Shown: positions 21,591-63,508 of the stretch, piece by piece
How positions within the stretch are numbered: the first letter of the stretch is position 1
Layout: the number at the start of each line of letters is the position of its first letter
Assembly: GCA_030272585.1 (NCBI GenBank)
Contig: BSYQ01000003.1
Coordinates: 434,001-498,000 of the forward strand
Reading direction: 5' to 3'
DNA from: Bryopsis sp. KO-2023
Taxonomy: Eukaryota; Chlorophyta; Ulvophyceae; Bryopsidales; Bryopsidaceae
Length of the DNA stretch: 64,000 nt
Position numbers and translations under genes: made by a program
Notes under the pieces: model-generated
Seen by the model: only the letters and a program-made list of their open reading frames with translations
The model's database searches: none
What the model was told of the DNA's origin: nothing

Positions 21591-21666
21591 TCATCCGTGG
21601 CATTATATACGTGATCTGTCAGTCCGACAAACTGAGGTATATAATGACACGGATGACCTAGTGACC

Positions 21667-29201: not shown

Positions 29202-29202
29202 A

Positions 29203-34308: not shown

Positions 34309-34339
34309 AACTGGTTTCGGAGCCGAAGCAACCCCTACT

Positions 34340-34804: not shown

Positions 34805-35279
34805 CCCCTACTGCAAGTCGAGTCTTCTTTTCGAAAAGATCGACAGGGAATTTAGCAGTCGAGTTGCAAAAGATCAGGTCAACTAGGTCGAAGAAGGTTT
34901 CCTTTCGTGTCTGGAACCTACTTCGTGTTGCTGCGCACCAACTTTACGCTGGACGACACAGAACGCACGTTGCTGCGCCTGATCATTCCCTCGAAGATCG
35001 CGCAGGATCTGTAGATCCTCGGACTCTACGACCACACAGCACGGCGTAGTAGAAACGTCAGTTCGTCGCAGAGTTGTCGACGCTAAACGTGGTTAAACGG
35101 AAAGGCAGACGAAGCGGAACCGCTAAGCGGACGTCTTTAGACGGAAACGGAGCTCCGCCAAAAGTTACGCTGCCAGAAATTGCGCGACAAAGAGTGACAA
35201 ATTAGTCACGTGGATCACCGGCAAAGTGATTCACCGAACTGACACGTGATCAGCCCGCCGACAAGTCAAGACATCCACC

Positions 35280-38243: not shown

Positions 38244-39946
38244 AGGCGATTCCACTCCATGCGGCCAGAAGGAAAAGAGCCAGACGCAGAAGATATCGAC
38301 ATCGCAAACGTCAGAAGCTCCGGGAGTCACGAGAACGAGAACGGAAGGGGAAACAGAATAAGAAGCCAGAGAAAGAGTCAAGTAATCCCGCCCAGAGGGC
38401 TGAACATCCGCTAATGAGTACGAAACTTGGGGACAAAGAGCGGATGGACGATTCAAGTACGGTCGCCCAAAGCATTGCCGACAAAGATTTGCCGGAAAGT
38501 GTTGGTTCAGTACGTGAAGACTCTGGAAGTTCCTCCGAAGATAGCAACCTGGAATCTGTCCTACCTTGTGGAGAGAAACAGGCTTCGGAAGGAAGTGTTA
38601 AAAGTTCAAGCCGGACTAGTCCAAGAGTTCCGTTTGACGCCGGTGCAAGAGGGGTACCGGACCGTAGAAAAGGAACAGCGGAAGGAGAAGGGGATTACCT
38701 CCAAGACAGTTTTAATCCGTTAGTTCAAAATAAACACCTCAAGTTCATGGGATATGAGCTTAGAGGGCGGATAGGGGGAGCGGCAATTTCCGCTTATGTA
38801 GACTGTGGAGCTACGGAAAATTACGTGGCACAAAAACTGGTGGACAAGTTTGGGTTAGAGTTCTCCTCGTGTAATAAGACAGTTTCGTTAGCGAATGGGG
38901 CTGTTTGCACTGTGGACAAACGATGTGGGAACATCACGATGCAGCTGGGTGACTACAAAACCCAGTTCTCTGCAGATGTATTCCCTCATCTCACATATGA
39001 CATTGTGTTAGGGTTACCGTGGCTCATTGCTAATAACCCGTCCATAGACTTTGCACAAGGAACCATCAATATCCGTCAAAGGAATCGTTGGATTACAGTA
39101 CCGGTTAAAGAGAAGCCGACTGATTATCTCCACCTGACGGAAGAAACTATCCCCATACTGTCCCACAAGAAAGTATTCCGCCATATAGGGAAACAGGCCG
39201 ACAAGGATAGCCTGGCCTACTTGGTGGTGGTTCGTGAATCTGACCCTATGGATAGCAACCATTTGATGCAATATCCATATGAGGGCCTCCAGGTTGATAG
39301 TCTAAAGACCTCGGCCGACAACCACGCACCAATACAGACGGATCTTCCACGGCTTTTGCATGACAAGATGCATCCGGCAATCCGTTCTGTGGTGGAGGAA
39401 TACAGCCATGTTTTTCCCAAAGATCTCCCACCTGGCATCCCTCCAGTCCGTAAGGGTCACGAATTCAAAGTTGACCTGGAGGATGAGAGTATGAGCCCAA
39501 TCCATCGTCCGTTGTACAAACTTTCTCCAGCAGAATTGGATGAAGTACGGACACAGGTGGACTACCTACTGGAACAACGGAAGATACGGCCGTCAGAGAG
39601 TCCCTGGGGTGCTCCCATACTCTTCGTCCCAAAGAAAGACGGCGGATTGCGGATGTGCGTTGATTATCGATGGATCAACAAGTACACAATCAAAAACCGC
39701 TATCCACTTCCACTTCCGGAGGAATTGATGGATCGGCTCGCTAAAGCAAAGATCTACACGAAGATCGACCTACGTTCGGGGTACTGGCAATTTCCAGTTC
39801 GCCCGAAGGATACTGCAAAAACCGCCTTCCGAACAAGATACGGACATTTCGAGTTTCTCGTCTGTCCTTTCGGAATGTCCAACTGTCCAGCCCAATTTCA
39901 GACAATGGTGCAGGATTTGTTGGGCGAGTTTTTGGACCACTTTGTG
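38219..39946 (+). CDS. pol: Element A pol, upstream part
   Basis: Overlaps the gag end by 25 nt in another frame. After an Arg/Ser-rich spacer come an aspartic protease domain (YVDCGATENYVAQ) and the first part of the reverse transcriptase (SPWGAPILFVPKKDGGLRMC, YTKIDLRSGYWQF). It ends where the non-coding LTR element is inserted, at target duplication ttgtg. Confidence 0.9.
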
Positions 39947-40176
39947 TGATACGAGGTGACGAGGTTAGTGTCTAGATGTCCCATCGGTGAGTGGGTGTGT
40001 CACTGTAGAGTAAGGGGTTAGTGTGTTGTGGACGGTATAAAAGGGGTTGTATTTTTGACATTGTGTAACCTTTGGGGCTGGGTTTGCTATTGTGTTGTGT
40101 TCCCACGTTCTACCCTCCTCCACTTGGAGGAGGGCCCCTAACTACCCTTCCCCCTCAGGGGGAAGGGCCCCTATCA
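39947..40176 (+). repeat. 5' LTR of the non-coding LTR element
   Basis: Contains a TATA box (tataaaagg, near 40037) and, near the 3' end, two perfect hairpins in a row: CCCTCCTCC/GGAGGAGGG at 40113-40134 and CCCTTCCCCC/GGGGGAAGGG at 40145-40167. Each is followed by cccct. It starts TGATACGA like the element A LTR, but the rest differs. Confidence 0.9.
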
Positions 40177-40191
40177 TTTTGGTTTCGGAGC

Positions 40192-43100
40192 TTGGGCGTC
40201 CTTAAACGACGAGGACGGACGACCCTGTAGGAGGAGCCACCTGGCCACGAAAAAGTCAGTGGCTAGGTTAAGTGCCTATCAAGAGGGGATGGGCAAGGAG
40301 TGATGGCACCAAAGGGGGTGGTGCTAGGTGGGATCGAAGGAGCGCGAGTGCGAGCGACGAGTTCGTAAGCACTGGAAAGGTCGGGGTAGAGGCGAGGAGA
40401 AGGAAACGAAAAGGAACCCGTCGCAGGAAGAGATCTAAGGGTCAGATCTACAGAAATCTGCAGGTGACCTTGTGACTGTTAACCTAAAGGACAGCACAGT
40501 GGTCGAAAAGAGTTCGAAACAGGTCGAAAGAGGTCGAAAAGCAGTGTAAAGGTAAGCTGAGAGCTTAAGTTTCCCTAAGACAGAGTTTCGACAGAACCTG
40601 TAAATTTCTGGAAGAAGATCTACAGCAGATCTGCAAAGATCTCCTACAAACGAACCACCTATGGACGAACCAAGCTCGAGTCAACGTTCGTGAGGGAAGT
40701 TCGACACACGGACGGCCAACGCGTGGTGGCGGATAGTTGTTGCGCAAGAAGTCGACGACTGCGCCTGTGACAGCTGCCAGAAATTCCGTTGTCGGACATA
40801 CAGTCATGTCACACTGTGTTACAGCGGAATTTGGCAGAGCGGAAGTATCACAGCGGAATCCGCGGAGCGGAAGTGTTACATCGGAATCCGCAGAGCGGAA
40901 ATGGCGAGCCGGAAGTGCAGCGGACGAGCCAAAGTCAGACAGCGAATGGAAAAGGCCAGAGTCTGACAGCGGACAAAATGGCGCAGCGGACAAAATAGGT
41001 GGCGGAAAAAGGGAGCGGACAGAACTCCGAGGTAGTTCGCCAGAGCTGGAAAAACGAAGTCCGCCAAAGCGGTTAAACGGAAACGGCGGAGAGTGAGGGC
41101 GGACAGAGGAAGAAGGCGGGCAAAGTGGCCCAGCGAACTGCTGCCCTTACACTCTGCTGGGCGGACTATGATATTCCAACGCGGAGGAAGAATAGGCGGT
41201 GTTGTTGTGAGCTAAAGCGGTTGAGCTTGGAGGAGCACCAGCGGACACACAACACGGAATATCGGCGAAGTATCGAGGCTAGAACTACGGTAGTTTCACG
41301 ATCGCGTTGGAGGCGGATTTTGATACATCAAGAGTTGGAGGCGGTCAGGAAACAGGAGCTGGAGGTTGTGTTACATGGCAGGAGCAGAAACGAGTCTGTA
41401 TCAACGCACAAACCGCCTGGGCTGATCACCCAGCGGACTAGCAACCGCAAAAGAGCGGATTTTCAGTGCGAAGATAACAAGACAAAGACCACATACTGCC
41501 GGAAGTTGGACCATAGCGGAAGAACGTAAACACAACTAGCGACAAGAAGACAAAGAGAGAAAAGAAGTCGCCAGGCTAATAGAGAGCGGAAGAGCGGCCT
41601 GCCAGTTACCTACAAACCGAGTTCAAGCGATAGTGGAGTTCAACGCACCCAAGTGGGGGATTAAACCGCCTGCAAAGCTGCTAAGTACGCAGGGCGGAAG
41701 AGAAGGAATCATCTGCTAAGCTATTAAGTATGCAGAATGACTTGTTGCAGAAGGAGCTGGTGGAGAGTATATAGTCCGCCTGGAATAGACTTTCAATAGG
41801 CCAAGACCTCACACAAGCGGATATAAGACGAGCGGATTAAATGTAGCTTGCCACGAGCTATCGAGCGTTCTCGAGAGTTTGAATCTGATTAAGGAGCACG
41901 CAATAGCAGTGCCACATTGGATGTTTGTGACTTAATGTTATGAACGGGCAAGTGAAGCTCTGAGCGGATATCTTGTGGGTAAACTTTGAGGTCTAATGGA
42001 TGTGGTAGCGGATTGTGATATTCCGGGCTGAGTGAAGAAGAAGAATTAGAGGTTATTGCCGTGGAAGTGTATGGTGGTATTCTTTGGAACTAACCGAGTT
42101 GCCATGGAACCAACCAAGGATCACGAGCGGAAAAATTCATTCTCTTTTCAACAGCGGAATAGCAGAGGCGGACTAAATGAGGTCGTCAAGGCGGACTAAA
42201 TTATACCGTCAGGCGGATTAAATTAGACCGTCAAGAACCAGAGCGGAAATAAAAGAGCCAACCTGGATGGTCAGGTCCAAGGACTATTGGCTGAAGGACT
42301 AAGCGGAATCATACGTCTGGTCAGGGCGGACATTACCACAAACCATTGAGCGGATATGGCTCACAATACTAGCCACAAATGGAAGTCTAGCGCCAAGAAC
42401 AACACCCAAAAGTCTAAGGAGTATTCATCGACCAAATTACAGCCGTCAAACTATTGCACTAAGCGGACTAAAAGCTAAGGCAAAGGCGGACTGTTAGAGC
42501 GGACTGCTGAGGCAGAATGCAAAGGCGATGAGGGTGTGTGTCTTGAGCGGAAATTCCAATGCAGCAAAGGTGCAAGCGGAATAAGTGACAGACAATACAG
42601 GCATCCAAAGAGCGGAGTAAATGTGTTCATATGGAGACAGTAGAACTGCCAAGCGGAAATCAACAAAGCCAGAGCGGATAGTGACGCTGCTACTGAGAAC
42701 TATGTGTGATTGCTTGAGCGGAAAGTTCAACTGCTCACGGAGAGTAAATGCCATGAGCTGAAGCGGAAAAAGATGAAAATTCCAAGCTACTGTTGTGGCG
42801 GACATTGATCACACTCTGTGGCCGCAGAAGCGGAAATTTGTGCCTGCAACGTCAAGTGGCGAAGGCCATAAAATAGCGGATTGTCTATAGTCACCTACCT
42901 CCATACAAGAACCAACCTGGAGCGGGTAGAAGCCAAGTTTCCCTATATTGGCTATTATATATATCATATGGAGCATTCAAATATGATCACCGACAAGCGT
43001 GTTTTGTAACAGTTCGAGCTTTGAACAGCATGGAGCGCGAGCAAAGAGTCAGCGGATTTTTGTCAGAAGCAAGAGCACAAGCGGATTATCAAGTGGATTG

Positions 43101-45744
43101 GAAGTAAGGGCGGATTATACTCGTATTAGCCAGTGTAAGGCATTGAGTTATCCGAACCTGAAGAGTGGAAAAAGCTACCAAGCGGATAAGGAGTGCGACT
43201 GACAAAACAATGTAAAGGAAAAGCGCAAACTCAAGGATCAGCGGAAAAAGTTATGTGTCTTGGAGAGTTGAGCGCTGAATAATGGATTCTACTGTTGACA
43301 AGCGGACAAAATTATGGAAGGTCCTGCAAACGACAAAGCATGCGGAAAAAGATGCATAAGAGCATGTCGGAGTGGAGGAAACTTGTCAGAGAAGCGGATT
43401 ATTTAGTGCCAGGGAGATGAGTCCTACCGCAGAAGACACATTTGGATGAAGTACTTCACAGTAGCGGAATTGCATCATCATTAAGACTTCAAGAGGTGCT
43501 GGAGGCGGAATACTACTGTCAGTTGGGGATTAAAGCGGAAATTTTGAACAAGTAGGCCGACCTAAGAAGGGCGCCACTAAATAGAGATTTCCAGGAGCTT
43601 AATCCAAAGCTTGAAGGACCAGCAAGCGAAATATTGACTGGAATTGAAATTGAAAAGAAGCTAACGACAGATATCCACGACATGGGCGGATATTGCTTCA
43701 GATGGCGGAACACTAGAGTGTATAGGCGGAGTACTAGCTTGAGCAGCCTATGGCGCCAGCGGATTCGACCTAAACCGGACAATCCTGAAGCAGGCATGAA
43801 ATGAATGGATCCAGCAATGATGATGGGGAGAATGGACTCCAAAGCAGACTCCAAAGCAGACTCCAAGGCGGACTATAAGGTTCCAAACTATCCCAGAAAC
43901 CTAGACGCGAGGAAATGGGAGTTCTGAAGCTTTGTGGCCGGAAAAAGGAGTGCTTTGATTCCGCAAATTGAAGAAGTTGTCCACCATTGAGAGGATGGAA
44001 GAACCACGATCAAAGAAGCGGAATACAGCTCTTATTTGAAGCCTTAGCGGACAAATATTGACCGAGCATTGCTCAAGAGCGGATTCCAACAAATAGTGGT
44101 CACCAAGAGCGGAAATACTACGTCTTGGTAACAAGCCTGGAAGGATGAATTAGACTACAAGACAGGCGGATATTGCTTGATCAATGGAGGACAAGTGGCG
44201 GAATTTAAGTGCCACTACACTTGTGTGATATATAGTTTCCTAGGCAGATAAGAAATGCTTGAGAAATAAGAGACCATTACCAGAAGAACCCAAAACGCGG
44301 ACAAAGGAAGCAGCGAATCAATCGGACAACCACAGGGAAGTGGGTCTGATAACGCCCATCTCAAAGAGAGTTGGGGCGGATTTCCTGAGCGGATCTTTTA
44401 AAAGAGATTTGGCTGGCTACTTGTCAAGCGGAAACAGGGGATGGGGACTTCCTGGAATGGCGAAAAGCATAGCAGAAGGCGGATTGGCTGGAGAGGAGGC
44501 AAATAAAGATTGAGCGTGGAAGCAGAGATTATGTGTGGAGCATAATCAACAAAGAGGCGGAAATCCAGGTGTGCACGATGGATGGATGCCAGAAGGCCAG
44601 ACAAATCCCGAAGACCAGGGATGGCGCAATCCACGCCGAGGCCTAACTTTGTGGAGCAACCAGAGCAGCCTAAAACGCCATACCAAGCAATGAGCACCAC
44701 GTGGACGAAAGGCTTGGGAGACTATTGAGGTGCGGTAGTTTCAACCAGTCTGGCAAGACTGTTATGGTGTATACTGAGAGACCCAAGCTAGGAGAGCTTG
44801 AACCAGGCGAAGCAAGCTGGTTGAAGGTTGACAAACAAACAAATCGCGCTAGAGGTCCAAACTAGCGACCGCGGAGTATCCACTGACAGGTGGTCAGGGC
44901 GGAAAACAGAGTTTCCTTGGATGCTACACTTAAAGGCGAGTGAGCGGGTAGATTTGTTGAAGTGGAGAAATATACCAGTCGAGAGAGAAGTGGTGAACCT
45001 TTTCAAAAGGCGGACTAAGAGGGAAACCAAGTACCTTGGAGCTAAGAACAAAGCGTTGGAACGCACACCAGAACTCTTTAGAGTTAACTGAGTGTGGCGG
45101 ATTGTTGAAGATGTTAATAAGTTCGACAAAAAGAAGATGCTTCAAGCTCTGTCAGCGGACTGCAAATATGTGTGGAGGAAGAATTTACTTCGAGTATTGT
45201 GCATTGACAGCCCATTCAGTGAAATGTGCAGAACCGGGTAATCCGTCGGCACCCTTGTCCATAGGGAGAACGGTCTATTCCTGGTTGTTTTGAACGCCTG
45301 TGTTAAGGTGTGTGCCTTTACTCGACATTAAACTTCTGAAAGATTCCTTATATCAGCAAAGCAAAGTTCAACTTGGACGAGGAGGAACACGATAATTTGA
45401 AGTAGGAAGTCCAAGACCGCAACCTTGAGGAAAGCGGACCTGAGAAGCGGACCTGGAGGGCGGACTAAAGAGGACTAAGCCCTTAGGCGGATTAAACACC
45501 TGGAGGGCGGACTAACAGTTTAGCCTTCGGGCGGATTAAAGCTTCATCAGGCGGACTATGAAAGGCTCAAGGGCGGACTTCAAAACAAATTCCAAAGGCG
45601 GATGAAATCAGACAGCCAGAGCGGGTTAAATACGACCGCTAGAGCCGGATTTTGAAGGTGAACTTGCATGGAACTACAAGAAGGGACGACTATGCTGATT
45701 TGGAGGGCGGATTACAAGGCTTTCGTTCAATACAAGACCACGGG
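40192..45744 (+). repeat. GCGGA-rich non-coding interior
   Basis: By hand I count about 95 GCGGA on the plus strand in the interior (40177-46387, MITE excluded) and about five TCCGC. Chance would give about six of each. Copies are dispersed at uneven spacing of roughly 20-150 nt, mostly as RGCGGAH, in all three reading phases. They thin out in the first 500 nt. The pattern therefore does not come from coding or from a tandem repeat. Confidence 0.85.
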
Positions 45745-46209
45745 CAGAGATAGGACTTGGGCCAAATTTTTGGTCCGACTCCGGTCCGGTCCGGTTACGG
45801 TCGGGTTACGGTCACCGTACTACGGCCGTAACTCCGTACCGTAACCGGAGTAATATGTTGTTTTTACGGTACGGAACAGGTACGGTATAACTACGGTAGG
45901 CCCTAAATCACCGTGAAGTAGCGTGGTTCAGTGCTAAAGCGTTAGGCTGCAGTCAGTAGGGTCGCGGGTTCGAATCCCCCTGGGTTCCTTTGGAATCGCG
46001 GGACCCTGCGGGGGTCACTTTCTACGGTTTACGGTTGTTACGGCCGTTACGGTCGTTACGGTCCGGTACGGAGCGGTACGGAGTGGTACGGTGCTACGGT
46101 TACGGCCGTAAAAGTACGATTTTCTGACGAAAATTGTACTCCGGTTACGGTCCGGTTACGGTGGTTACGGTCCGGTTACGGTGACCGTAACCGTAAAGTC
46201 CTATCTCTG
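45745..46209. mobile_element. hAT-like MITE, family 1, copy 2 (465 bp)
   Basis: Same length and, by eye, the same sequence as copy 1, with its own 8-bp duplication accacggg (45737-45744, 46210-46217). It lies within the non-coding LTR element, so it moved after that element formed or entered. Confidence 0.95.
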
Positions 46210-46387
46210 ACCACGGGCGGAAGTGCCACATATTATGCAGAAACCAGCGGACAGAAGAGGATATGAAGAGCTCAAGATTTCGGGCGGAATACCAACAGTT
46301 GAGAGGGGACTGTTTGGGCGACAAAGCGGGAACTCTGACGGGGATGTCTTGCAGCAGGAAAATGGGGGCAAGCTCCTCAACCAGTGT

Positions 46388-46617
46388 TGATACGAGGTGA
46401 CGAGGTTAGTGTCTAGATGTCCCATCGGTGAGTGGGTGTGTCACTGTAGAGTAAGGGGTTAGTGTGTTGTGGACGGTATAAAAGGGGTTGTATTTTTGAC
46501 ATTGTGTAACCTTTGGGGCTGGGTTTGCTATTGTGTTGTGTTCCCACGTTCTACCCTCCTCCACTTGGAGGAGGGCCCCTAACTACCCTTCCCCCTCAGG
46601 GGGAAGGGCCCCTATCA
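46388..46617 (+). repeat. 3' LTR of the non-coding LTR element
   Basis: 230 bp matching 39947-40176, including the twin hairpins at 46554-46608. Followed by target duplication ttgtg. Confidence 0.95.
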
Positions 46618-49004
46618 TTGTGGTTGTTTTCATTGACGACATCTTGGTGTTTTCCAACTCAGTGGAGGAACATGTCGATCATTTGAAACAAGTATTCGAA
46701 CGCCTTGCAAAGTATAAATTGTACGCCAAAGCAAGCAAGTGCGAAGTAGGGGTCAGCGAGACCGACTATTTGGGGTTTCATCTGTCGGGAAAAGGCCTGC
46801 AGCCAATGAGTGACAAAGTGCGGGCTATACAAGAGTGGAAGGAGCTGAGCTCAGTGACGGATGTGCGAAGTTTTTTGGGCATGGTATCTTACTATCGTAA
46901 GTTTATACCAGAGTTTGCTCGAATTGCAGGACCCTTGCATGATCTCATCAAAAAGAATCATGTGTGGACGTGGGGACCTCTGCAACGGGAAGCTTTCGGC
47001 AAACTCAAGGAAAAGATTACCCGCACACCGATCCTTCTCCTACCCGATTCGCTGCTCAAGTACACCGTAATAACGGACGCATCAGGGACTGCATATGGAG
47101 CAGTTTTGTGTCAGGACCATGGAAAGGGGCTACAACCAATAGCTTACCTTTCAAGACGACTAAAACCAGCTGAGACACGATATTCCGCTTACGAGCGAGA
47201 GCTGGGGGCTATAGCATATGCGCTTAGCCAATGGCGACATTATCTCGAAGGAGCGCCTGGGGAGGTTACGGTTATGACGGACCATCAGCCGTTAACCTAC
47301 TTCATGACCCAAGCAACAATGTCGCGGACCCAAGCCCGATGGTGGAGGTCAGGGTTTTTTGATTCCATAGGTCCAACAATCGTCTATGTTCCTGGCAAAG
47401 CCAACGTTTTGGCAGATGCGTTATCCCGAAGCCTTCCTGATGTTAAGGATCAAATTCATGCTTTGTCGACCTGGGTGGTAGATGAAGCGGATGCATGGAA
47501 GACCGCTATTGCAGAAGATCAGAAACTGCAAGCGGAAGTCAAGAAAATCCAAGAGGGTAAACCCACGAAACTTTCTCTAGAGGATGGCTGGTTGTATTAT
47601 CAAGCAACTCCCACCTCAGACAAAGTATTGGTGGTACCGAACGGATACCGGGAAAAGGTTATGGGGGAATTCCATGATGTGCCGAGTGCCGGCCATGCAG
47701 GCGCGGCCCGCACCATGGATGTGCTGAAGCGATACTATTGGTGGAAAGGAGTTGGCAAGGATGTTCAAGCATATGTGCGGACATGTCCTGTCTGTCAGCG
47801 GACGAAAGCTGATACGACAAAGCAAAAAGGACTTTTGCAGCCACTCCCAATTCCGTCAGCAAAGTGGGAACAGATTACCACTGACCTCGTGACTGATTTA
47901 CCAAAGTCACATGGGTTTACCGCCATTGCGGTATTTGTTGATCGGTTAACCAAGTACGTTCGCTTTGCACCGTGCACCAAGGAAATAACCGCCCCAGAAT
48001 ATGCGAAGTTGTTTGTGAACAAAATCTACAAACACTATGGCCTTCCCAAAGTGATCATCTCAGATCGTGACCCCAGATTCACAAGTTCCTTCTGGAGGTC
48101 GATGTTTTCACTGTTGGGAACCCAACTCCGAATGAGCACCGCCTATCATCCACAAACGGATGGGCAGTCTGAAGTAACAATTCGGGTGTTGGAGGATTTC
48201 TTGCGGCCTTTTGTGGAACGGTACCCAGACCGTTGGGTAGAGTTTTTGGCGACAGCAGAATTCGCTGCCAATAACTCCCGCAATGTATCCACAGGCTATG
48301 CCCCAGCGCATTTGTTGTATGGGCAGCATATGGGCCAGATTACTGTGCATAGGAAGTTGACGGCAAAAGAGGAGTCCGAAATGGCAACCGAAATGGTCAA
48401 GAGGATGGACGAACAACTGCAGCAGGCAAAGCAGCAGTATGCAACCGCACAAGAGCGGATGTGTGTCCAGGCCAACAAAAAGCGACGAGAAGTGACGTTT
48501 AAAACGGGGGATGAAGTATTGGTGAAGAGTGCCTTCATACCATTGCACTCCCTACAAAAGATCCCACCTAAACTTCGTCGACGTTTTGTCGGACCATTCG
48601 TTGTGGACAAGGTCATATCCACAGTGGCCTACCGTCTCAAACTTCCACCCCATTGGACTATACATGCCACCTTCCATGTTTCCAAGCTGAAGGCATACAA
48701 CCGCTTGTCGGAAGATGATAAGCGGGAGGTGGACCTTCCCGAAGGGGAATTGGTGGATGGCACCATCGAATACGAGGTGGAGCGTATTCTGCGGGACCGA
48801 GGAGCCTCCAACCGTAAGGAGTACTTGGTTTTGTGGAAGGGCTTTGATTTGATGGAAGCCACCTGGGAGCCAGAAGCCCACCTGGCCAATGCCAGCGACC
48901 TTTTGGCTGAGTACTTGAAGAACCGCACGCGCTTGCCGACTAAAGAAGAAATCCGATCAGAACGGGCAAAGAGACGGACAAGGCGGCGGGGGTTAGCTCT
49001 CTAG
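46618..49004 (+). CDS. pol: Element A pol, downstream part
   Basis: Resumes at the target duplication with the catalytic RT motif (VFIDDILVFSNS). Then RNase H (ITDASGTAYGAVL), integrase H-H-C-C finger (CPVCQRTKADT) and D,D,E core (TDLVTDLPKS, SDRDPRFTSSFW), and a C-terminal chromodomain (EYLVLWKGFDLMEATWEPE). Confidence 0.92.
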
Positions 49005-49333
49005 ATGACACAGATTGATGTGGGGATGGGAACGATGGTGAGAGGATGGTATCAGTTCACCCACAATCAAATACATCTGGAGGAGCAAGCTAATCAGTAC
49101 ACAGTCAAGGGGTTGAGGGTAATTACAAAGCGGGCTAGAATCTGACTGAGGCGACTCTCAATAGAGGAGGTCAGCCATCGGTGACAAGTGGATGACTCTA
49201 CCACTTGTATATATACCCACTTCTTCAACCCTCCGCACCATTTTTCACTTTCGAGCAACCCAGTAAACGGAGCCGAGTTCAGCAAAGAGCGAAGTGTGCG
49301 TGTGTGTGTTTGCGGAGAGACCGTCCAGCAGCT

Positions 49334-51082
49334 ATGTCTTCCAAAGGCAACCGTGAAAGCAAAGATGAACAAATCACGCGTTTGCGGATGGAACGAGACA
49401 AATACGGAAAGGAATTAGCGGAAGCTGTGGAAGTAAGCAACAAGGCTTTGACGGCAAACACAGCATTGCTCCAGCAATTGACGGAAGTAAACAAACTCGC
49501 TCAAGAAGGAGTAGGCCATCGAGATGAACTGGCCGACAAACTTGCCGAACAAGAAGCACTGATGAGGGAAGCGGCTCAAAAACATGCGGAAGAGCGGGCT
49601 AAAGAGGAGGCCGACTACCACCAGAAATTTCGGACATTCCAACAAGCAGTCAGTGATGCCAAAGTGAATGCACGGGGATTAGCTTCTGAGTTGAAGGAAG
49701 CCCGGACAACAATCAAAACGCTGGAAGAGGAAAACCAGGCTGTCCGACAAGAGAAAATCTGCATCACTTCGGAGTTGGGATCCGTGAAAAACAACCTCCA
49801 AACTGCGCTGAAGGATCAGTCCTTCTATATCAAAGAAAACAAGGAATTGCGGGAAGCTCAGACAAAACGCTTCCAAGCGCTGAAGCAGTTGGAGAAAGAG
49901 GTGGCGGCCCTGAAAGCTGAAAAAGCGGCGGACAAGCGTGGTGAGCGAGTCGGGCTCGAGACCAAGATCATGATAACAGAGTTGCTAGCATCCCGAGCGG
50001 AGGCGGCCAGGCTTCGTCACATCTTGGAAAAGTTCCCACAAGATTTGGCGGCCATGGCAACTGGAGTCGTCCAAGGGAAGCTCCACACTCTGTCCGATCA
50101 AATGTCGCTGTTGCATAAGGGGAAATTTCAAGATGTGGTAGACATCCACAAGATAAAAGAAATCACCCTGACGCATACAAGCTTGCCGCCCGCGAATGAA
50201 CTGAAGCATGTCCGAGACTGGGATGGGAGACTCACAAGGGAGGCCACGAAGATTGCAAGAATGATGGGCCGACCACCATCGCAGCCGACAAACGAGGACG
50301 ACAGCAGCGATGACGACAGTGATTCCTCGGAAGATGAACAACACCGAAAAGAAAAGGAAGCTGCGGAGGCAGCCAAGGCAGCGGCCGACAAATTGAAGTC
50401 CGACAAAGCTAAGGCCGACAAGGCTAAGTCCGACAAAGCTGCAGCCGACAAGTTGAAATCCGACAAAGCTGCAGCCGACAAAGCAGCAGCCGACAAAGCT
50501 AAGACGGACGATATCAAGCCCAAGCCCAAGCCAATCAAGACGACAACAACGACCCGCAAGAGAATGCGTCCATCAAAGATTGCAAAGGAGCTGGAGGAGA
50601 CACTGCTCAAACGTCACAAGGCAAATGGTGATCCTCGGTTGTTGGGCCGCACTTGTTATCATTGTGCCGGACGACAACTGCATGTGGGAATTCCTGCAGA
50701 TTGTCAGTCCCACTTTGTGTGCCCCAAACATTGGACCAGACACCAGGTGACGGAGAGAATGATCCAGCGATGGAAGGACGACAAGTCTGTGGTTCCGCTC
50801 AACATGACTGTGACGGAACTGCATCTCGGCAAGCGAATGCCGGACTTCCTTCCCCTTGCACCACCACCACCAGCCGACGCCATCGACACTTTGGTTGTTC
50901 CATGCCAAATTTGTAATATCCGCAAATGTGGATTTCCTTCCGGCTCGAGCACGAAGGCTCTCCGGTCGACGATGACGACAATCCTTCATGAGATGTGGGA
51001 TCCAGAGCAGGATATTGACTCAGACATTGACTCTGATGTTGCTGGTGGCGGCGGTACTGTTGGACCAAGCCAAGCCTACTAG
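49334..51082 (+). CDS. Element A third ORF: long coiled coil plus Cys/His module
   Basis: 582 aa from an ATG 329 nt after the pol stop. Residues about 10-250 are an extended coiled coil (Glu/Lys/Leu heptads). At about 340-400 there is a Lys/Ala/Asp repeat built of ADKAKSDK-like units. Then the Cys/His module: C441-x2-C444-x12-C457-x2-H460-x2-C463-x2-H466, and a second pair C524-x2-C527 with C532. The tail is acidic. No signal peptide or membrane helix. Same layout as the third ORFs of B and D. Function unknown; a structural or nucleic-acid-binding accessory protein is a guess. Confidence 0.8.
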   Translation: MSSKGNRESKDEQITRLRMERDKYGKELAEAVEVSNKALTANTALLQQLTEVNKLAQEGVGHRDELADKLAEQEALMREAAQKHAEERAKEEADYHQKFRTFQQAVSDAKVNARGLASELKEARTTIKTLEEENQAVRQEKICITSELGSVKNNLQTALKDQSFYIKENKELREAQTKRFQALKQLEKEVAALKAEKAADKRGERVGLETKIMITELLASRAEAARLRHILEKFPQDLAAMATGVVQGKLHTLSDQMSLLHKGKFQDVVDIHKIKEITLTHTSLPPANELKHVRDWDGRLTREATKIARMMGRPPSQPTNEDDSSDDDSDSSEDEQHRKEKEAAEAAKAAADKLKSDKAKADKAKSDKAAADKLKSDKAAADKAAADKAKTDDIKPKPKPIKTTTTTRKRMRPSKIAKELEETLLKRHKANGDPRLLGRTCYHCAGRQLHVGIPADCQSHFVCPKHWTRHQVTERMIQRWKDDKSVVPLNMTVTELHLGKRMPDFLPLAPPPPADAIDTLVVPCQICNIRKCGFPSGSSTKALRSTMTTILHEMWDPEQDIDSDIDSDVAGGGGTVGPSQAY

Positions 51083-51244
51083 AGACTGACCAACCGAGAG
51101 ACAGTGGTTTCGGGAGTTGGTAGTGGGCTGAGTGTTAGTGGGACTTTTCTTCTTTTTCTGTTGATTGACTTTTGGGGTTTTCTTTTTCGTGTGTTCACGC
51201 ACAAGGGTGCGGGCACCCTTTGGGGGGGGGGGGGGGGGAGTAGT

Positions 51245-51433
51245 TGATACGAACGTTTCGAATTGTAGTACAGTCGTGGTACGGGTATTCGGGTTCTAGG
51301 GTGATAAGTTCAGAGAGAACTTGTAACAATTAATTTCTCTCTGAGTGTCGAGTTTCACCCCTGTTCACTCGTTTCTCAAACTCAAGTGTGCACACAACCT
51401 CCCAGTGAAAGCCTAGCTAAACAGGGCCTAACA
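51245..51433 (+). repeat. 3' LTR of element A
   Basis: 189 bp matching 34120-34308. Preceded by a G-homopolymer polypurine tract and followed by target duplication tcttc. Confidence 0.95.
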
Positions 51434-55279: not shown

Positions 55280-55849
55280 TGAAACGGCTGACTTAGTAGG
55301 CGAAGATCTAGGCGGAAAACAGAGGTTACAGTCTGAGAGTTCCAGGTAGTCGCGGACTGACTGGAATGGGGTAGTTACGTGATGCTCAATGAGAGGCTGA
55401 AACGTAGTGAAAAGAGTTCGAACCAGGTTCAGTATATTCAGTGTCAGGTCTCAGATGGCTGAGAGTTTGGGTAGAGAGTCGGGAGTCAGACTGGAAGGAG
55501 CTTCAGTCTGGGTCCTTAGTCTAGAGGTTATCAAGGGTTATAAAGGGTTAGTCGGAGCTCTGGCTAGAAGGGCTGAGCTGAGAAATGATAGAGACGTTTT
55601 GGGGAGAGCTAGATGATAGCTAGTATTTGTAAGGTTAGGAGATGGGCTGGGAGTTTCTAGAAGCTCTGGGCTGAGAGTATAAAAGGCTGGGGATCGTTGT
55701 AAAGAACAAGCTTGTTGAAATAAGATTCAGTTGTATACTCTCGTGTCTCAGACCTTTCTTACAGAACTTCTGGTCGTCTCCCAACGTGTGTGAAGAACGG
55801 GTTAAGTGGCGGCTGGAAGTATTCAGCCTCAGGAAACAAATCCGTTTCA
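55280..55849 (+). repeat. 5' LTR of element D
   Basis: 570 bp from tgaaacggctgac to aaatccgtttca, matching 62939-63508. TATA box tataaaagg near 55678. Confidence 0.95.
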
Positions 55850-55870
55850 CTGGTTTCGGAGCGAGTTTCT

Positions 55871-56101
55871 ATGCCTATAATCAGAGAAGAAGAATACTGG
55901 TTTGGCGAAGAAGGAGATCCTAGGTTACTGCTTGTAGACCTCTGGCTGGAAGAGAACCCGTTGGAAGTTCTGCACATAGGCGAAGACAATAGTGATACTG
56001 AAAGCACAGGATCAAGCGAATCGAGAACTGAGACGGAGGCGACAGTTGATCTTCCGCTTACCCCTGAAACCCCAACTCAGGAGGAACCCCAACATCAGTG
56101 A
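55871..56101 (+). CDS. Element D small ORF 1
   Basis: 76 aa starting 8 nt after the primer-binding site (MPIIREEEYWFGEEGDPRLL). Strongly acidic, with a Ser/Thr/Glu/Pro-rich tail. No domain recognised. The next ATG is 11 nt after its stop. Confidence 0.55.
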   Translation: MPIIREEEYWFGEEGDPRLLLVDLWLEENPLEVLHIGEDNSDTESTGSSESRTETEATVDLPLTPETPTQEEPQHQ

Positions 56102-56112
56102 GTTCGTTGTCT

Positions 56113-56412
56113 ATGGACCCTTGGCTGGCTCACCTTCTCGATCTTTATTACAGAGTAGAGTGGCAGTATCCCGACGAGGAGCTGGGATTACCGATTGTGC
56201 GGAGGGAAGCTAGGAGGAACGAGGTCCAGTTGAACTACGAAGAACTCGACCTACTCTGCTTCCTGAAAGAGCTGGAAGAACAGGCTGACAAGGAGAATCA
56301 GCCAACCCCAACTACCAAGTCACCTCTCGACTTTCCCACTACATCAAGGTTTTACCGCTACGACGAGGAGGAACGGAACTCCTTGGCCCTGACATCGCTT
56401 TTTCACCAATGA
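56113..56412 (+). CDS. Element D small ORF 2
   Basis: 99 aa (MDPWLAHLLDLYYRVEWQYP at the start), acidic, with a Leu-rich helix near residues 40-55. Its stop overlaps the start of the next ORF as ATGA (56409-56412). No domain recognised. Confidence 0.55.
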   Translation: MDPWLAHLLDLYYRVEWQYPDEELGLPIVRREARRNEVQLNYEELDLLCFLKELEEQADKENQPTPTTKSPLDFPTTSRFYRYDEEERNSLALTSLFHQ

Positions 56413-56768
56413 AAGAGGAGAGGATCCACGAACTAAACGACACCTACCAAGTAAAGTGGACGCTCGCGCAGCCAGGAGTACATAACGTACGGGGGCACGA
56501 GCAAGAGCCGGTTGTGAACTCAGAGGGTCTGGAAATCCCAACTATCAGACCTCTGGGTTTGTTTGGCGACAAGTTTCTGCAGCTGACCCAAGAGGAGCGG
56601 CAGATCGTGAGGACGTGCACCGGAGATCCAGAGAGGAAGAGGGTTCCAGACACCCTCGTAAATCAGGAAGGAGAGTCAGTGGAGCTCCTTGATCGGAAAA
56701 GGCAGTCGAAGAAAGTTAGGGTATCCGAATTTACCTATCCGCGGAATACCCTAACCGAGGATTTTTGA
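56409..56768 (+). CDS. Element D small ORF 3
   Basis: 119 aa (MKEERIHELNDTYQVKWTLA at the start), charged, with a basic patch near residues 95-105. Ends 7 nt before the gag ATG. No domain recognised. Confidence 0.55.
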   Translation: MKEERIHELNDTYQVKWTLAQPGVHNVRGHEQEPVVNSEGLEIPTIRPLGLFGDKFLQLTQEERQIVRTCTGDPERKRVPDTLVNQEGESVELLDRKRQSKKVRVSEFTYPRNTLTEDF

Positions 56769-56775
56769 GGCTGAG

Positions 56776-57771
56776 ATGGAGCAACAGGTGGCTGAGTTGA
56801 GGGCGGCGTATGAGGAGGTAATGGGAAGGTTGAACCGAGTGCAAGGCGTGGTCGAAGAAGTACCGGGAATGCTGAGCACGGCGGTCAATGAGGCTGTGGG
56901 AAGCTCCATTTTGGAGCAACTAACCGACAAAGTGGGAACAGCAATCGGGGCGGCAACTGCAGCACAGGCTGGAACGGCGGCTGGAAGTGGTGGTCGAGGT
57001 AATGACCTGAGAAGCAAGCCAGCCCGACCTGATCTGTGGGGAGGCAGGCAGAATGACCCTCCTATCCAGGACTGGTTGTTCAGCCTCCGAGTGCATTTTG
57101 ACGCCACCCACGTCGAAGATGGAGTCTCGAAACTCCGCCTGGCAGGATCTCTACTGAGAGGGCCAGCCGCGACATGGTGGAGGACAAGAGTGGAGGAGTC
57201 GGAGACTGATGGAGGCCGACCTTTGCCGACGTATGAGGACTTCTGTGAGGAGCTGAAAAACCAGTTCGGAGAACCACATTTTTTGCGCCGCACACGGACA
57301 GAATGGGCGAATTTACGCCAAGGCGGAATGTCTGTGCGGGAATACACGCATCGCTTTAGGCAGCTGATGTTGTATATTTCCGACGCATCGGAGGGCGAAA
57401 AAATACACAGGTTCGTCGATGGTTTGCGAGGGAGGGTTGGTATCGAGACCGACCTCCAAAACCCCAAGACCTTGGATGAAGCTATTCGAGTGGCGGAAAG
57501 GTGGGGAGGAGCTCAATCTGGGAGTTCGATCTTGAATCGAGATCGCGGCGGCGGCGGCGGCAGCGGCGGCGGCGGAAATCGCAGATCGGATCACATGGAA
57601 TTGGACTACGTCGGAAGAAGGCGACAACAGAGACAGCAGAAACAGCGAGGTGATAAAGAGAGAGAAAGAAATAAGCCAGTCTGGAAGAAAGAAAAAGCAG
57701 ACGGAGAGGTGAAGTGTTACAAGTGTGGGCGTCGAGGGCATTACGCTCGAGACTGCCCCTCGCGAAAATGA
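56776..57771 (+). CDS. gag: Element D gag
   Basis: 331 aa: short N-terminal coiled coil, retrotransposon gag domain at about residues 90-230 ([26 protein letters not shown]), Gly/Arg linker, CCHC knuckle [14 protein letters not shown] at the C-terminus. Stop and pol start overlap as ATGA (57768-57771). Confidence 0.92.
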
Positions 57772-60700
57772 GTATGTTAGGTAAACTCGCAGGGTGTGAA
57801 GTTAAGGGGAAGCCTGCGAGTTCGAGGAATTCTAGGAATTCGAGGGATTTTCCGTTGGAAGAAACGTCCAAGGAACCGACTAGACCTGATAACCAAGATA
57901 ACCTAGAAGTCCATTCATTTGATGGGACAGATTTAGACATGACTAAGTTCGGATTTCTAGCAGTGGCTGAAACTGATAACCGAACTAGACAACTGATTAC
58001 TGTGAAAGGGGAAATCTCAGGTTTTGCAGCTGAGATATTAATAGACTGTGGAGCAACTGATTGCTTTTTGGCTCGGAAATTTTGCGAGAAAAATAAGCTG
58101 GAATTAGAAGCACAAGAAGAAAAAGTTAGCCTGGCTGGGGGAAGTACCTTAGAATCAAAAGGGAAGATCAGGGCTACTCTCAGATTTGGAGATTTTGCTA
58201 GTAGGGAGATTTTTCATGAAATGTCTCTTGCTAAGTATGATGCTATATTGGGAAAAACTTGGCTGGCTAAGCATAATCCCCGGGTTGATTTTCGAACGAA
58301 TGAGGTAGTGGTTTCAGACGGGCTGAAAGAACATTTGATTTCTCCGGCAAACCCCGGAGAGGAGGAAGAGGAACAGTGTGTGCTGATGGTGTTTGAAACA
58401 TGTTTGAACAGAACTGACTCTGAACAAAATGTTTCCAGACAAGCTGAACTTACAGCAGAAATCAGACAGGAATTTCCTAACACTTTTGTGGAAGAATTAC
58501 CCAGTGAGATACCCCCTTCCAGAGGTATCGAACACACGATCCAGTTGGAACCAGGCACGGTTCCACAAAGTAAAGCACCTTATCGACTAGGCATCAAGGA
58601 AATGGCAGAACTGAAAACTCAGATTGCAGCCATGTCGGAAAAAGGGTTTATTCGACCGAGTAGATCCCCTTGGGGAGCACCGGTAATTTTTGTACCGAAG
58701 AAGAACGGGAAACTACGCATGTGTGTAGATTATCGGGCATTGAATAAGGTGACGGTGAAAAACGCTTATCCGATTCCGAGGATAGATGAACTGATAGATC
58801 AGCTTCATGGCGCAAAATACTTCTCAAAAATAGATTTGTGTTCGGGATACTATCAAGTCAGGATGGCGAAAAAGGATTGGGCGAAAACTGCTTTTCGAAC
58901 TAGATATGGATCTTACGAATACACAGTTATGCCAATGGGTTTGACAAATGCACCAGCAACTTTTATGAATGTGATGAACGATGTTTTTCGACCACATCTG
59001 GATAAGTTTGTTATAGTTTATCTCGATGATATCTTAGTTTACAGTCGGAACTGGGAAGAGCACAAGGAACATCTTAGACAAGTGTTTCAGCTACTCGAAA
59101 AACACAAACTTTACGTTTCACCGGACAAATGTGATTTGGGGATGACAGAAGTCGAATTTTTGGGACACATAGTCGGAAGAGAGGGACTCTCCGTGGTACC
59201 TAAGAAAGTTTTAGCCATTAAGGAGTGGGCACAACCTCAGACAGTTCGGGATATTAGGTCGTTTTTGGGTTTAGCGAATTATTATCGGAAATTTATTAAG
59301 GGATACTCTGGGATTGCAACGCCGTTACATGAACTAACAAGGAAGGAAGTTAAATGGCAGTGGACTGAAAGTCAGGAGAAAGCGTTTCAGACGCTAAAGA
59401 AGAGCATGCAGGAGGCACCTGTGTTAATAATTCCAGATCCGGAGTTGAGTTTTGAAGTAACTACAGACGCATCGGATTTTGCTATTGGAGGAGTTTTGAC
59501 GCAAGATCAAGGTCAGGGGCAACAACCAGCCGCGTTTGAAAGTCGGAAATTAAATTCAGCTGAGAGGAATTATCCGACACACGAAAAAGAACTGTATGCG
59601 ATAGTCTATTGTTTGAAAACTTGGCGACATTATTTGGGGGCGAGGAAATTTGTGGTTCACACGGACCACGCTCCGCTGAAATATATTCAGACGCAGCCTA
59701 AATTATCCAGTAGACAGGCTAGATGGATGGAAACTTTACAGGAATTTGATTTTGAGATTAAATACAAACCTGGAAAAGAAAATACAGTTGCAGATGCATT
59801 AAGTCGAAGGTCGGAAATGGAATTAAACGCTGTGGCAAAAGTCCGAGCAGGCGTAGTATTTCAGGATCAGGTTAGACTTGCGTATCAAGGGGATGAACAT
59901 TGCAGAGAAGTTATAGCTAATTGGGAAGCTGGTGAAAAAGATCCGCGTTATAGGTGCGATGGCACAAAATTGTGGTATAGTCTGAAAGACAAATGGTTTT
60001 GGTATATTCCAAAGGACAAAGAAATTAGACAAACAGTGTTGGCTGAATGTCACGATCAGGCTGGACATTTTGGGAGACACAAGACTGTCGCAAATGTTCG
60101 AAAAAGATATTATTGGCCTAGATGCACTGAGGATGTCGAACGATATGTTAGGACTTGTGTTGGTTGTCAGAAAAACAAGTCTAGCACTCAAAAACCATTG
60201 GGGTTATATCAGCCAATTCCAGTTCCAGACGAACGCTGGAAAGAAGTTTGTTTAGATTTTGTGGGACCTTTACCTATGACACAAAAGGGTCATGATTATT
60301 TAGTGGTTATGGTCGACCGTTTTAGTCGAATGATCCACTTGGTAGCCACCACTACTGCAGTTACAGCTAGTGGGGTAGCTGAAATTTTCTTTGATACAAT
60401 TTTCAGACATCATGGGTTGCCAGAGGCTATTATTTCCGATCGAGATACTCGTTTTACAGGCCAGTTTTGGCGAAAACTGTGGGAATTAGCGGGAACTCGT
60501 TTAGCCATGTCATCGGGATATCACCCTGAAACTGATGGAATGACTGAAAGGGCAAATCGAGTAGTCGGAGACATGTTGCGAATTTATATTTCGACCATAG
60601 GGGGTGATTGGGACACTAAATTAGTGGCGGCTGAGTTTGCTTATAACTCATCTGTTCACTCATCAACAGGTTTTACACCTTTTTATTTGGTTTATGGGCA

Positions 60701-61313
60701 ACATCCCAGATCTCCTCAGGATTTGTTAGACTCAGGTCCAGTTTCAGATGAATGGTGGACAGTTTGGGCTAAAAGTTTACAGCTGGCTCGGAAAGCGATT
60801 TTGAAAAGCCAACAGCGACAGAGGGCTGTCGCAAACCGAGGGCGGAGGGATGCAAGTTTTGCATTAAATCAGTATGTCTTTTTATCGACAGCTGATTTAC
60901 CTTTACCGCCAATGATGGGCCGGAAGTTGGTATCTAAGTTTTGTGGACCTTTTAGAATTATTGATATTGTGACATCAGTAACTTACAGGTTGGAACTTCC
61001 TAATCACTGGAAAATACATGATGTTTTTCATGTTTCCAAGCTAAAAGCATTTGAAGATGGATCAGAAGAGTTTCCAGCCAGGGCTATTTCTCCACCTCCA
61101 GATCCAGTGGTGTTGGAAGGAGTCGAGGAATATATCGTCGAAAAGATCAAGACACATCGAACCAAACGGCGGAAAAAGAAGAATGTGACAGAGTACTTGG
61201 TTTCCTGGGAAGGATACGGATCGGAAGAGGACCAGTGGCTCCCGTCACATCACTTGGGTAATGCGCAGCAAGTGCTGCAGGAGTATTTACGTCAAAAATC
61301 TTCCATGGACTAG
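57768..61313 (+). CDS. pol: Element D pol polyprotein
   Basis: 1181 aa from the ATG that overlaps the gag stop. Domains in order: aspartic protease ([15 protein letters not shown]), reverse transcriptase ([13 protein letters not shown]), RNase H ([13 protein letters not shown]), integrase finger ([14 protein letters not shown]) and core ([23 protein letters not shown]), chromodomain ([17 protein letters not shown]). Length and order are those of a complete chromoviral pol. Confidence 0.95.
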
Positions 61314-61407
61314 CTCCTGTTTTCCTGAGTTCGGGTTGAGTGTGTGCGAGTGCGAGTGTGTGCGAGAGACAGTTTGGAGTTCGAAAAAGAAAAAGAAAGC
61401 AGACAAC

Positions 61408-62427
61408 ATGGTTGAGTTTGGTGGAGGAGTCAAAGCACTGTTGGAGGAGATTAAAAAGAATGCTGGAGCGATCGAGGGAGTGTCGGAAAGGATCAACAAA
61501 ATGCTGGAGGAGTACCTGAAGGAAGGAACCAGACTGGAAAGAATCCAAGAAAGAGATGAGCAGGAGGCCCTGGAAAAAATGGCAAAGCTGGAGGAGGAAA
61601 AAGAACAACTCAAGCAAAAGATCGGCGAGCTGGAAGAAGAAGGGGGATTTCAGGCGGAAAGAGATAGCTGGGAGGCTGAACGCACTCGGTTGCTCGACGA
61701 CCGGGCGAAATATTTGGCGGAAAATGAGGACCTCAGCGTAAAATTGGCGATGGCGGAAACTTCAGCGGACGCGGCGAAAAGAGAGGCGGAAAAGCTGCTG
61801 ATGGAGGGGGCAGATGAGGAAATGCGCCACAAGCTCGACGGGGTCGAAGACAAGCTGCGGGAAGAGCAAATGCGGAACCAACAGCTCAAGGGCCAGGTAG
61901 ACTTGTTGAAGAGTATGGTGGAGTCCATGTCGGGAAAACCAAGCGGAGAAGTGAAGCACGAAGAGGGGGAAAAACACACTTGCGTGTTTTGTCGCACCCC
62001 AAGCAGCAACTGTCAGCCGACCGGAGAAGACTGCCAACGGCACTGGGTGTGCTCGAATATCGGGTGTCGGGATCGAGTGTGGCTGAGTATCAGTCTGGAA
62101 GTCGATGAGGAAAAACGAGACTGGCGGAGAATGTGGGTACCAGCTGAAACAGGGCCACCAATGGTGCTACACTCGGAAACCTGCAAACTCTGCGCCTTGG
62201 GTTTCAAGTTGGGGTCGGATTATACTCGGGGAGTGTATTTAAAGGCCAAGCGGACCGTGGGCCCCCTGAGAAAATTCGAGGCAGCCGAAGACGATGCAGA
62301 ACCAACGGACTACGATGGGGATTGGGTCGTCAATGAGCCAGGCGGAGACAGTGGACCAGAAGGAAAGAAAAGGAAACCTCCTGGAAGTTCAGGGGGATCC
62401 AGAAATGTGAAACTCAGAAAAGCCTGA
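61408..62427 (+). CDS. Element D third ORF: coiled coil plus Cys/His module
   Basis: 339 aa starting 94 nt after the pol stop. Residues about 10-180 form a Glu/Lys/Leu coiled coil. Module: C192-x2-C195-x13-C209-x2-H212-x2-C215-x4-C220, second pair C259-x2-C262. The tail is acidic then basic. No signal peptide or membrane helix. The spacing matches the third ORFs of A and B. Function unknown. Confidence 0.8.
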   Translation: MVEFGGGVKALLEEIKKNAGAIEGVSERINKMLEEYLKEGTRLERIQERDEQEALEKMAKLEEEKEQLKQKIGELEEEGGFQAERDSWEAERTRLLDDRAKYLAENEDLSVKLAMAETSADAAKREAEKLLMEGADEEMRHKLDGVEDKLREEQMRNQQLKGQVDLLKSMVESMSGKPSGEVKHEEGEKHTCVFCRTPSSNCQPTGEDCQRHWVCSNIGCRDRVWLSISLEVDEEKRDWRRMWVPAETGPPMVLHSETCKLCALGFKLGSDYTRGVYLKAKRTVGPLRKFEAAEDDAEPTDYDGDWVVNEPGGDSGPEGKKRKPPGSSGGSRNVKLRKA

Positions 62428-62938
62428 GTTGAATATTAAAAAAAAAAAAAATATAGGATCAAGAGTGAAATATGATTTTCTGTTGGTAATTGGGTGTTTG
62501 AATTTTATTTTGTTTTTGGAAGAAAAAGGAAAAGAACAGTGAATGGATCAAGTGAGGGTAGAGGGAATTTCTGGAAAACAATTAACATACTGAGTGTGTA
62601 AAAACACTTGTGAGAATTACAGTTTGACTAGAGCTGAGACTGTGTGATTTCCAGTGTGGGCTGTGAAGTCTATTGAACAGGGTTGGGTTTATGTGTGAAC
62701 GGGCTGGGATGGGAAGTCACAGCGGCAGAAGTAACCATAAGCAGAAACCAACATTCAGCTCAAGTCGCAATCGGGAAGTTGTTACGGAAAACGTCGGAGA
62801 ATATTGCTTACAGCTATATCAGAGGTATTCTCAGAATAAGCGAGTTAAGTCACTTGGCAGTTCTGGTGAAGTCGTGCAATACGAACTTAGTGTACAGAAC
62901 ATCGCTGGGTCAGCGATCTCTCTCTAAGGGGGGAGGAG
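62428..62938. other. Element D 3' untranslated part
   Basis: Begins with an A-run (62437-62450), then AT-rich sequence and ends with the polypurine tract. No supported gene. Confidence 0.6.
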
Positions 62939-63508
62939 TGAAACGGCTGACTTAGTAGGCGAAGATCTAGGCGGAAAACAGAGGTTACAGTCTGAGAGTT
63001 CCAGGTAGTCGCGGACTGACTGGAATGGGGTAGTTACGTGATGCTCAATGAGAGGCTGAAACGTAGTGAAAAGAGTTCGAACCAGGTTCAGTATATTCAG
63101 TGTCAGGTCTCAGATGGCTGAGAGTTTGGGTAGAGAGTCGGGAGTCAGACTGGAAGGAGCTTCAGTCTGGGTCCTTAGTCTAGAGGTTATCAAGGGTTAT
63201 AAAGGGTTAGTCGGAGCTCTGGCTAGAAGGGCTGAGCTGAGAAATGATAGAGACGTTTTGGGGAGAGCTAGATGATAGCTAGTATTTGTAAGGTTAGGAG
63301 ATGGGCTGGGAGTTTCTAGAAGCTCTGGGCTGAGAGTATAAAAGGCTGGGGATCGTTGTAAAGAACAAGCTTGTTGAAATAAGATTCAGTTGTATACTCT
63401 CGTGTCTCAGACCTTTCTTACAGAACTTCTGGTCGTCTCCCAACGTGTGTGAAGAACGGGTTAAGTGGCGGCTGGAAGTATTCAGCCTCAGGAAACAAAT
63501 CCGTTTCA
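62939..63508 (+). repeat. 3' LTR of element D
   Basis: 570 bp matching 55280-55849, followed by target duplication catac and the continuation of element C gag. Confidence 0.95.

Follow-up and report, generated by a model that had tools for sequence, protein, structure and literature searches.

The window analysed here is a stretch of 64,000 nucleotides from the 91 Mb assembly (28 contigs) of Bryopsis sp. KO-2023, a bryopsidalean green alga. It holds three LTR retrotransposons, A, B and D, each with an extra ORF (ORF3) between pol and the 3′ LTR (Table 1). Their pol genes have the Ty3/gypsy order of RT, RNase H and integrase, followed at the end by a chromodomain (PF00385, E 7e-10 to 4e-16). 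All three had a gag by domain search, with a CCHC knuckle in B and D; the gag of A gave a gag-domain match, and a knuckle-like motif was seen by eye. The elements are flanked by 5-bp TSDs, their ends having been read by eye. Despite their different LTRs, D and B have a PBS-like sequence in common directly after the 5′ LTR (window 55850-55880 and 29175-29202). The A-family element that received D is split by it into window 54422-55279 and 63509-64000, with the target duplication CATAC.

Table 1 Elements A, B and D and their genes in the window.
Feature	Position in window	Strand	Basis and remarks
Element D, chromovirus, inserted in a second A-family copy	55280..63508	+	LTRs 55280-55849 / 62939-63508, TSD CATAC
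gag of D with CCHC knuckle	56755..57771	+	ORF, domain search
pol of D: protease, RT, RNase H, integrase, chromodomain	57675..61313	+	ORF, domain search
ORF3 of D, 339 aa: helix-rich region, linker, Cys/His module, basic tail	61408..62427	+	ORF, motif, copies
Cys/His module of D, first to last Cys, residues 192-262	61981..62193	+	motif
Element B, chromovirus	19580..29665	-	LTRs 19580-20042 / 29203-29665 identical, TSD CTAAC
gag of B	27274..28614	-	ORF, domain search
pol of B with chromodomain	23126..27289	-	ORF, domain search
ORF3 of B	21912..22940	-	part common to other copies 22940 to ~22077, then read-on in window copy
66-bp tandem repeats of B, between ORF3 and 3′ LTR	20782..20953		repeat scan
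Element A, chromovirus, RT region split by insertion	34120..51433	+	LTRs 34120-34308 / 51245-51433 identical, TSD TCTTC
gag of A	35631..38243	+	ORF, domain search
Second part of A pol: RNase H, integrase, chromodomain	46500..49004	+	ORF, domain search
ORF3 of A, 582 aa, sixth ligand His	49334..51082	+	ORF, motif, copies

The ORF3 proteins of A, B and D run from a helix-rich N-terminus through a linker to a C-terminal Cys/His module with eight ligands and the pattern C-x2-C-x(12-15)-C-x2-H-x2-C-x(2-4)-[CH]-x(38-57)-C-x2-C. The variable spacings are x13, x4-C and x38 in D, x15, x4-C and x41 in B, and x12, x2-H and x57 in A. As a regular expression, the pattern matched three of the 201 window ORFs (≥90 aa), which were exactly the ORF3 of A, B and D. 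By chance, 0.0025 matches per window are expected (one match in 400 rounds of shuffling all ORFs). The plan that a preliminary description had recognized as common to the three ORFs was thus confirmed. Its module spacing was also correct, apart from the last gap, which is 38–57 and not 40–60 residues. The places it gave stand for the ORFs of A and D and for the start of B at 22940 on the minus strand; the frame of B had to be corrected, since it reads on to 21912 in the window copy. In other copies, such as the one at locus L014, this frame closes ~288 codons after the ATG. Judging by its ligand pattern, the module probably binds zinc.

An N-terminal coiled coil had been proposed as well. The helix-rich character of this region held, and the coil itself is suggestive in A, B and D by a simple heptad score, reached by 5 (D), 12 (B) and 12 (A) of 200 shuffles; for the ORFs of two further carriers, E and B3, it was reached by 19 and 24, a weak signal as in B and A. 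In a crude scan, 14 of 15 ORFs, among them A, B and D, were free of membrane-like windows, as expected from the earlier remark that ORF3 occupies the position of env but has no membrane segment. The stop-to-stop frame of the remaining ORF, G, had eight such windows. An env-like gene was rejected for the lack of these windows in A, B and D. Eight of the 15 ORFs (D, E, E2, B2, B3, B4, H and H4) have a basic cluster close to the C-terminus; that of F is ~30 residues from the end, and there is none in A, B, G, A2, H2 and H3. Nuclear entry is therefore a guess.

ORF3 is present in many copies, the counts being lower bounds because the best candidates were scored. For D, there were at least 52 full-length open copies, 45 at 97–100% and seven at 90–91% identity, without a stop. 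For B, there were at least 59 full-length copies, 56 at 93–100% and three at 86–89%, also without a stop, and for A at least 14 at 97–100%, one of them with a stop. Fragments and stop-bearing copies ranked lower in all three lists.

Its place after pol was surveyed from the pol ends. From the 1111 candidates of this pol search, the best 150 were scored; 62 were D-type, and the other 88, at 47–50% identity, are the B clade by our own reading. The D-type pol C-termini were followed by a full ORF3 in 51 of the 62 cases, by a partial one in ten and by none in one, with a gap of 98 bp in 44. After the B-like pol ends, we found the full B ORF in 50/88, a B2 module in 33, a partial ORF in four and none in one. 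The ORF is therefore carried by most pol ends of both types. The claim of an accessory gene following pol was borne out in this respect, the gene being open in full-length copies (one stop in 14 for A) and standing after most D-type and B-clade pol ends.

Within the A/H clade, an H-type ORF was found ≤3 kb from the pol end in 29/35 members of the nearest group, 22/43 of the next and 7/17 of the third; this survey scored the best 150 of 1137 pol and 81 of 189 ORF candidates, and its misses are partly blind. The most distant chromovirus group of this clade has 55 pol ends, near which H, A and E types were looked for. Within 3 kb, 0/55 had an H-type and 0/55 an A-type ORF, and an E-type ORF lay near one, probably as a nested insertion. 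In a chromovirus outside these 55 (L024, 47% identical to the query), ~320 bp separate the pol stop from the enclosing element, which leaves no space for ORF3. Some chromoviruses of this alga seem to be without the gene.

Twenty further loci were chosen because they were matched by the ORF3 proteins of A, B and D. At 18 of them the ORF lies in an element of the same orientation: E (five), a Helitron (two), a KDZ-like element (four), A2 (four) and B-type (three). The other two, L026 and L039, had the ORF without a pol of its own. Loci L041-L043 are further A-clade chromoviruses, and the pol of L041 and L042 aligns with that of A to its end. The five E loci combine a gypsy RT and integrase with a module ORF. 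At the one E locus searched against Pfam (L021), the integrase ORF matched integrase families only, with no chromodomain.

The Helitron carrier, F, encodes in one ORF a Rep (Helitron_like_N, PF14214, E 1e-42) and a PIF1 domain (PF05970, E 2e-51), as seen at L027. A module ORF of 449 aa was present at 5/5 loci of this family, one of which has its Rep frame cut to 578 aa. A second module ORF lies upstream, at ~14 kb in four loci and ~23 kb in the fifth, and the two are 74–75% identical over the module. For a second Helitron family (21 loci, frames of 1407–1816 aa), inspection by eye of the matches listed gave no module ORF nearby. Eleven of its loci (frames of 1440–1816 aa) are clustered in 126 kb of one contig (C11:3347457-3473943).

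In all four copies fetched, which have ~9 kb in common, the KDZ-like element has a D-like module ORF, G, and an A/H-like one, H. Genome-wide, G was found at seven loci and H at six; an insertion splits one of the G loci, and one locus has a stop in the match. The KDZ domain of this carrier (PF18758) scored 20.5 bits (E 4e-4) against a Pfam cut-off of 26.6 bits, so the class of the G/H element is tentative. A genome-wide KDZ search at E 0.001 gave no match, its positive controls being equally silent. Short relics of many module-ORF families and of Helitron Rep, several with stops, lie at ~1.3-6.2 Mb of contig C2, a region that may be old or of low recombination.

This range of carriers does not support the idea that ORF3 defines a lineage of chromoviruses, since related ORFs occur in E (no chromodomain found at L021), in a Helitron and in a KDZ-like element. 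The same idea is opposed by the chromovirus group with 0/55 H-type, 0/55 A-type and 1/55 E-type ORFs. That the ORF3 gene is real and common to several element types we regard as close to certain.

The carriers also bear on what the protein might do. As has been proposed for integrase chromodomains, ORF3 could tether new copies to their insertion sites, its module binding a chromatin protein. In favour, many carriers have a chromodomain, and the KDZ-like ORF matches one weakly (E 6e-4, under the cut-off). Chromoviruses, however, already have such a domain in pol, and we consider a tether quite improbable.

The modules fall into classes. Modules of D, E, F and G aligned with those of B over 78 columns in a profile comparison (probability 95, E 4e-8), by which the B- and D-type modules are homologous. 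In nine modules of this B/D class, all eight ligands and a Trp after the sixth ligand are invariant. The A and H types have His as the sixth ligand and a longer last gap. Profile comparison of A/H with B/D modules gave P 0.008, 0.018 and 0.12, and the link between A and H modules P 0.003; homology of A/H to B/D modules, and of A to H, is not established at the sequence level. The statement that spacing was kept while the sequence diverged applies within the B/D class; its extension to A would need a homology for which the profile link is weak (P 0.008, 0.018).

These values leave some room for convergence or chance, that is, for a resemblance between Cys-rich ORFs of separate origins: A/H and B/D are not confidently linked by profiles, and A and H are joined only at P 0.003. 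In the B/D class as in the H class, however, the alignments make homology clear and refute this reading, and the pattern lies far above shuffling in a frame that is under selection. As a general explanation, convergence is highly improbable.

Trees added little. The B-types formed a clade (support 100/99). The best tree joined D and B too, but with poor support (59/20), and a topology in which the H modules of chromoviruses group to the exclusion of the KDZ-like one was not rejected (p-AU 0.21). The argument for transfer comes from the presence of the ORF across element types and from an inversion of identities between D and E, and not from the trees. For most pairs, the integrase is far more similar than the module (integrase/module identity 95/51% for A-A2, 93/38% for H2-H3, 89/45% for B-B2 and 57/24% for D-B); for D-E it is inverted, with 28% in the integrase and 36% in the module.

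A and A2 differ in dS along the element: 0.086 in gag, 0.54 in pol and saturated in ORF3, and their nucleotide similarity ends between pol and ORF3. This pattern suggests block exchange between A and A2; very fast change of ORF3 is a possible alternative. H2-H3 is uninformative on exchange, because its pol is nearly saturated at synonymous sites.

Comparison of genomic copies showed purifying selection on the coil and the module. Over the whole ORF, dN/dS was 0.18–0.28 in nine non-independent E pairs (a tenth had no synonymous change), 0.14 in A, 0.15 in H and 0.15 in A2; G gave 0.91, resting on very few changes. By region, four E pairs had 0.05–0.19 in the coil, 0.17–0.23 in the module and 0.07–0.56 in the tail. 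Their linker values (0.21, 0.25, 0.47 and 1.05) overlapped the module range except in the pair with 1.05. The linker is thus clearly loose in one of four pairs, which lends little weight to an adaptor with a free linker. In A, the coil had 0.07, the module 0.04 and the linker 3.7, the last with hardly any synonymous change to measure it by. Constraint was stronger on the RT and integrase of E than on ORF3 (0.03–0.06).

A structural or nucleic-acid-packaging role in particles or transposition complexes of the elements themselves would also be compatible with a coil and a small zinc domain, a combination that suits a nucleic-acid chaperone; LINE ORF1 proteins are a coiled-coil analogue. The differing synonymous divergence of gag, pol and ORF3 between A and A2, as of separate blocks, fits as well. 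This role is nevertheless rather improbable. B and D already have a gag with a CCHC knuckle, one chromovirus group manages without ORF3, and the ORF is carried also by the Helitron and the KDZ-like element, types that are not known to make particles.

No known domain was recognized in ORF3 or its modules. Searches against Pfam, NCBIfam, PHROGs and PDB sequences gave weak matches only, the best at E 0.0028 for the coil stretches and, for the modules, at E 0.022 (Pfam), 0.032 (NCBIfam), 0.033 (PHROGs) and 0.54 (PDB). The modules thus did not turn out to match unrelated known domains. The plant mobile domain (PF10536) was absent among the Pfam matches of ORF3 and modules. The gag knuckle (PF00098) was absent from both, and the module spacing differs from its consensus, C-x2-C-x4-H-x4-C.

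The module might be a RING-like finger of divergent form. ORF3 would then be a coil-dimerised transposon E3 ubiquitin ligase that targets a host restriction factor for degradation. The ligand order C-C-C-H-C-C/H-C-C agrees with the C3HC4 type (C-C-C-H-C-C-C-C), and the stretches C1-x2-C2-x(12-20)-C3-x(2-3)-H-x2-C5 and C7-x2-C8 fit. The invariant Trp after the sixth ligand in the nine B/D-class modules and a match of one member to Prok-RING_4 (E 0.058) point the same way. RING E3 ligases, alike in ligand order and part of the spacing, have a Cys as sixth ligand, x2 after the fifth; here it stands at x4 in the B/D types, and at x2 but as His in the A/H types. None of 16 modules matched a Pfam RING family above cut-off, and the best PDB sequence match (E 0.54) is itself not a RING. 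Spacing and profiles thus lend no support to RING membership, and we consider a ligase of this kind, a special case of a host-facing role, unlikely.

Relatives outside the carriers were searched for at E 0.01. The D module (five candidates) and the H-type module (227 candidates) had none elsewhere. The B module had one protein match in 122 candidates, a chimeric gene model of element pieces from the same alga, and two scans of viral contigs found no relative. Gene sets often mask transposons, and missing database relatives therefore do not show absence. An annotated algal protein (P0004, BSKO_12552) is an apparent chimera of integrase and ORF3 pieces, so that the public protein set includes a gene model derived from a transposon. 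We found no description of an ORF3 gene in the open-access literature, which misses most subscription papers. ORF3 apparently represents a new family of accessory genes, carried by an unusually wide range of elements.

Accessory genes show what a transposon needs from its host. That elements which replicate in different ways have the same type of gene suggests an obstacle common to them. The carriers would replicate by reverse transcription, by rolling circle and probably by a transposase. They share the nucleus and its silencing, and not particles or enzymes, so the protein most likely acts on the host nucleus. We tentatively favour, among the readings considered, a host-facing, anti-silencing accessory role. 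The ORF3 protein would self-associate through its coil, and the zinc-held module would bind either noncoding DNA of the element itself or a host factor of chromatin, silencing or ubiquitination. Such binding might relieve silencing of its own element family. The tandem repeats found downstream of the ORF in E, F, G/H, B3 and B would be candidate targets, comparable to those of VANC in VANDAL elements; the repeat scan found none downstream of the ORF in D, A, B2 and B4.

More speculatively, this family of zinc modules, so far undescribed, might be a cassette exchanged among retrotransposons, a Helitron and a DNA transposon, all of which would need it against the same host silencing. The alga being coenocytic, with a great many nuclei per cell, the protein could work in trans from one nucleus to others. 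ORF3 with an anti-silencing role would give a handle on the silencing system in ulvophycean green algae.

Several known systems resemble ORF3 in part. VANC proteins are accessory non-transposase proteins of the Mutator-like VANDAL elements of Arabidopsis with demonstrated anti-silencing activity (PMC5735166, PMC10398659), and their targets often form tandem repeats (PMC5735166). ORF3 resembles them as an accessory transposon protein with strong divergence between related elements and with noncoding tandem repeats that vary between relatives. It differs in that VANC belongs to DNA transposons, whereas ORF3 is carried by LTR elements, a Helitron and a KDZ-like element, has a Cys/His module and a putative action; D, A, B2 and B4 moreover have no such repeats after the ORF. 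The plant mobile domain (PMD) occurs in Gypsy and MULE elements and in the host proteins MAIN/MAIL1 (PMC9289625, PMC5418596). It too is one accessory domain in both retrotransposons and DNA transposons, of which ORF3 would be a further case, and it is linked to silencing; ORF3, however, has no PMD match.

Extra ORFs in gypsy elements are known from other hosts, and so are accessory domains (PMC9289625, PMC6431247). An AlkB-like ORF of orchid Ty3/gypsy elements, found in that screen in Phalaenopsis only, was proposed to counter host surveillance (PMC9289625); it holds a known enzyme domain, whereas ORF3 has no known domain and several element types as carriers. The gypsy element SM1-Galahad of Selaginella has short ORFs after gag-pol, one of which (113 aa) has a chromodomain (PMC3350952). 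Like ORF3, this ORF lies downstream of pol in a chromodomain element, but it is short and holds the chromodomain itself. With this precedent, an extra ORF after pol is as such not new. Giant gypsy elements, for example the planarian Burro, also have accessory domains, some linked to ubiquitination (PMC6431247). As described there, these are mostly fused in giant polyproteins, and the ORF3 module is apparently not among them.

Two other regions of the window were noted. The minus strand of window 52285-54299 encodes another retroelement pol, with direct and partly inverted repeats of a 234-bp stretch nearby. At window 5756-6916, an ORF of 386 aa has four C-x2-C ... C-x2-C units by eye and is perhaps a host zinc protein.
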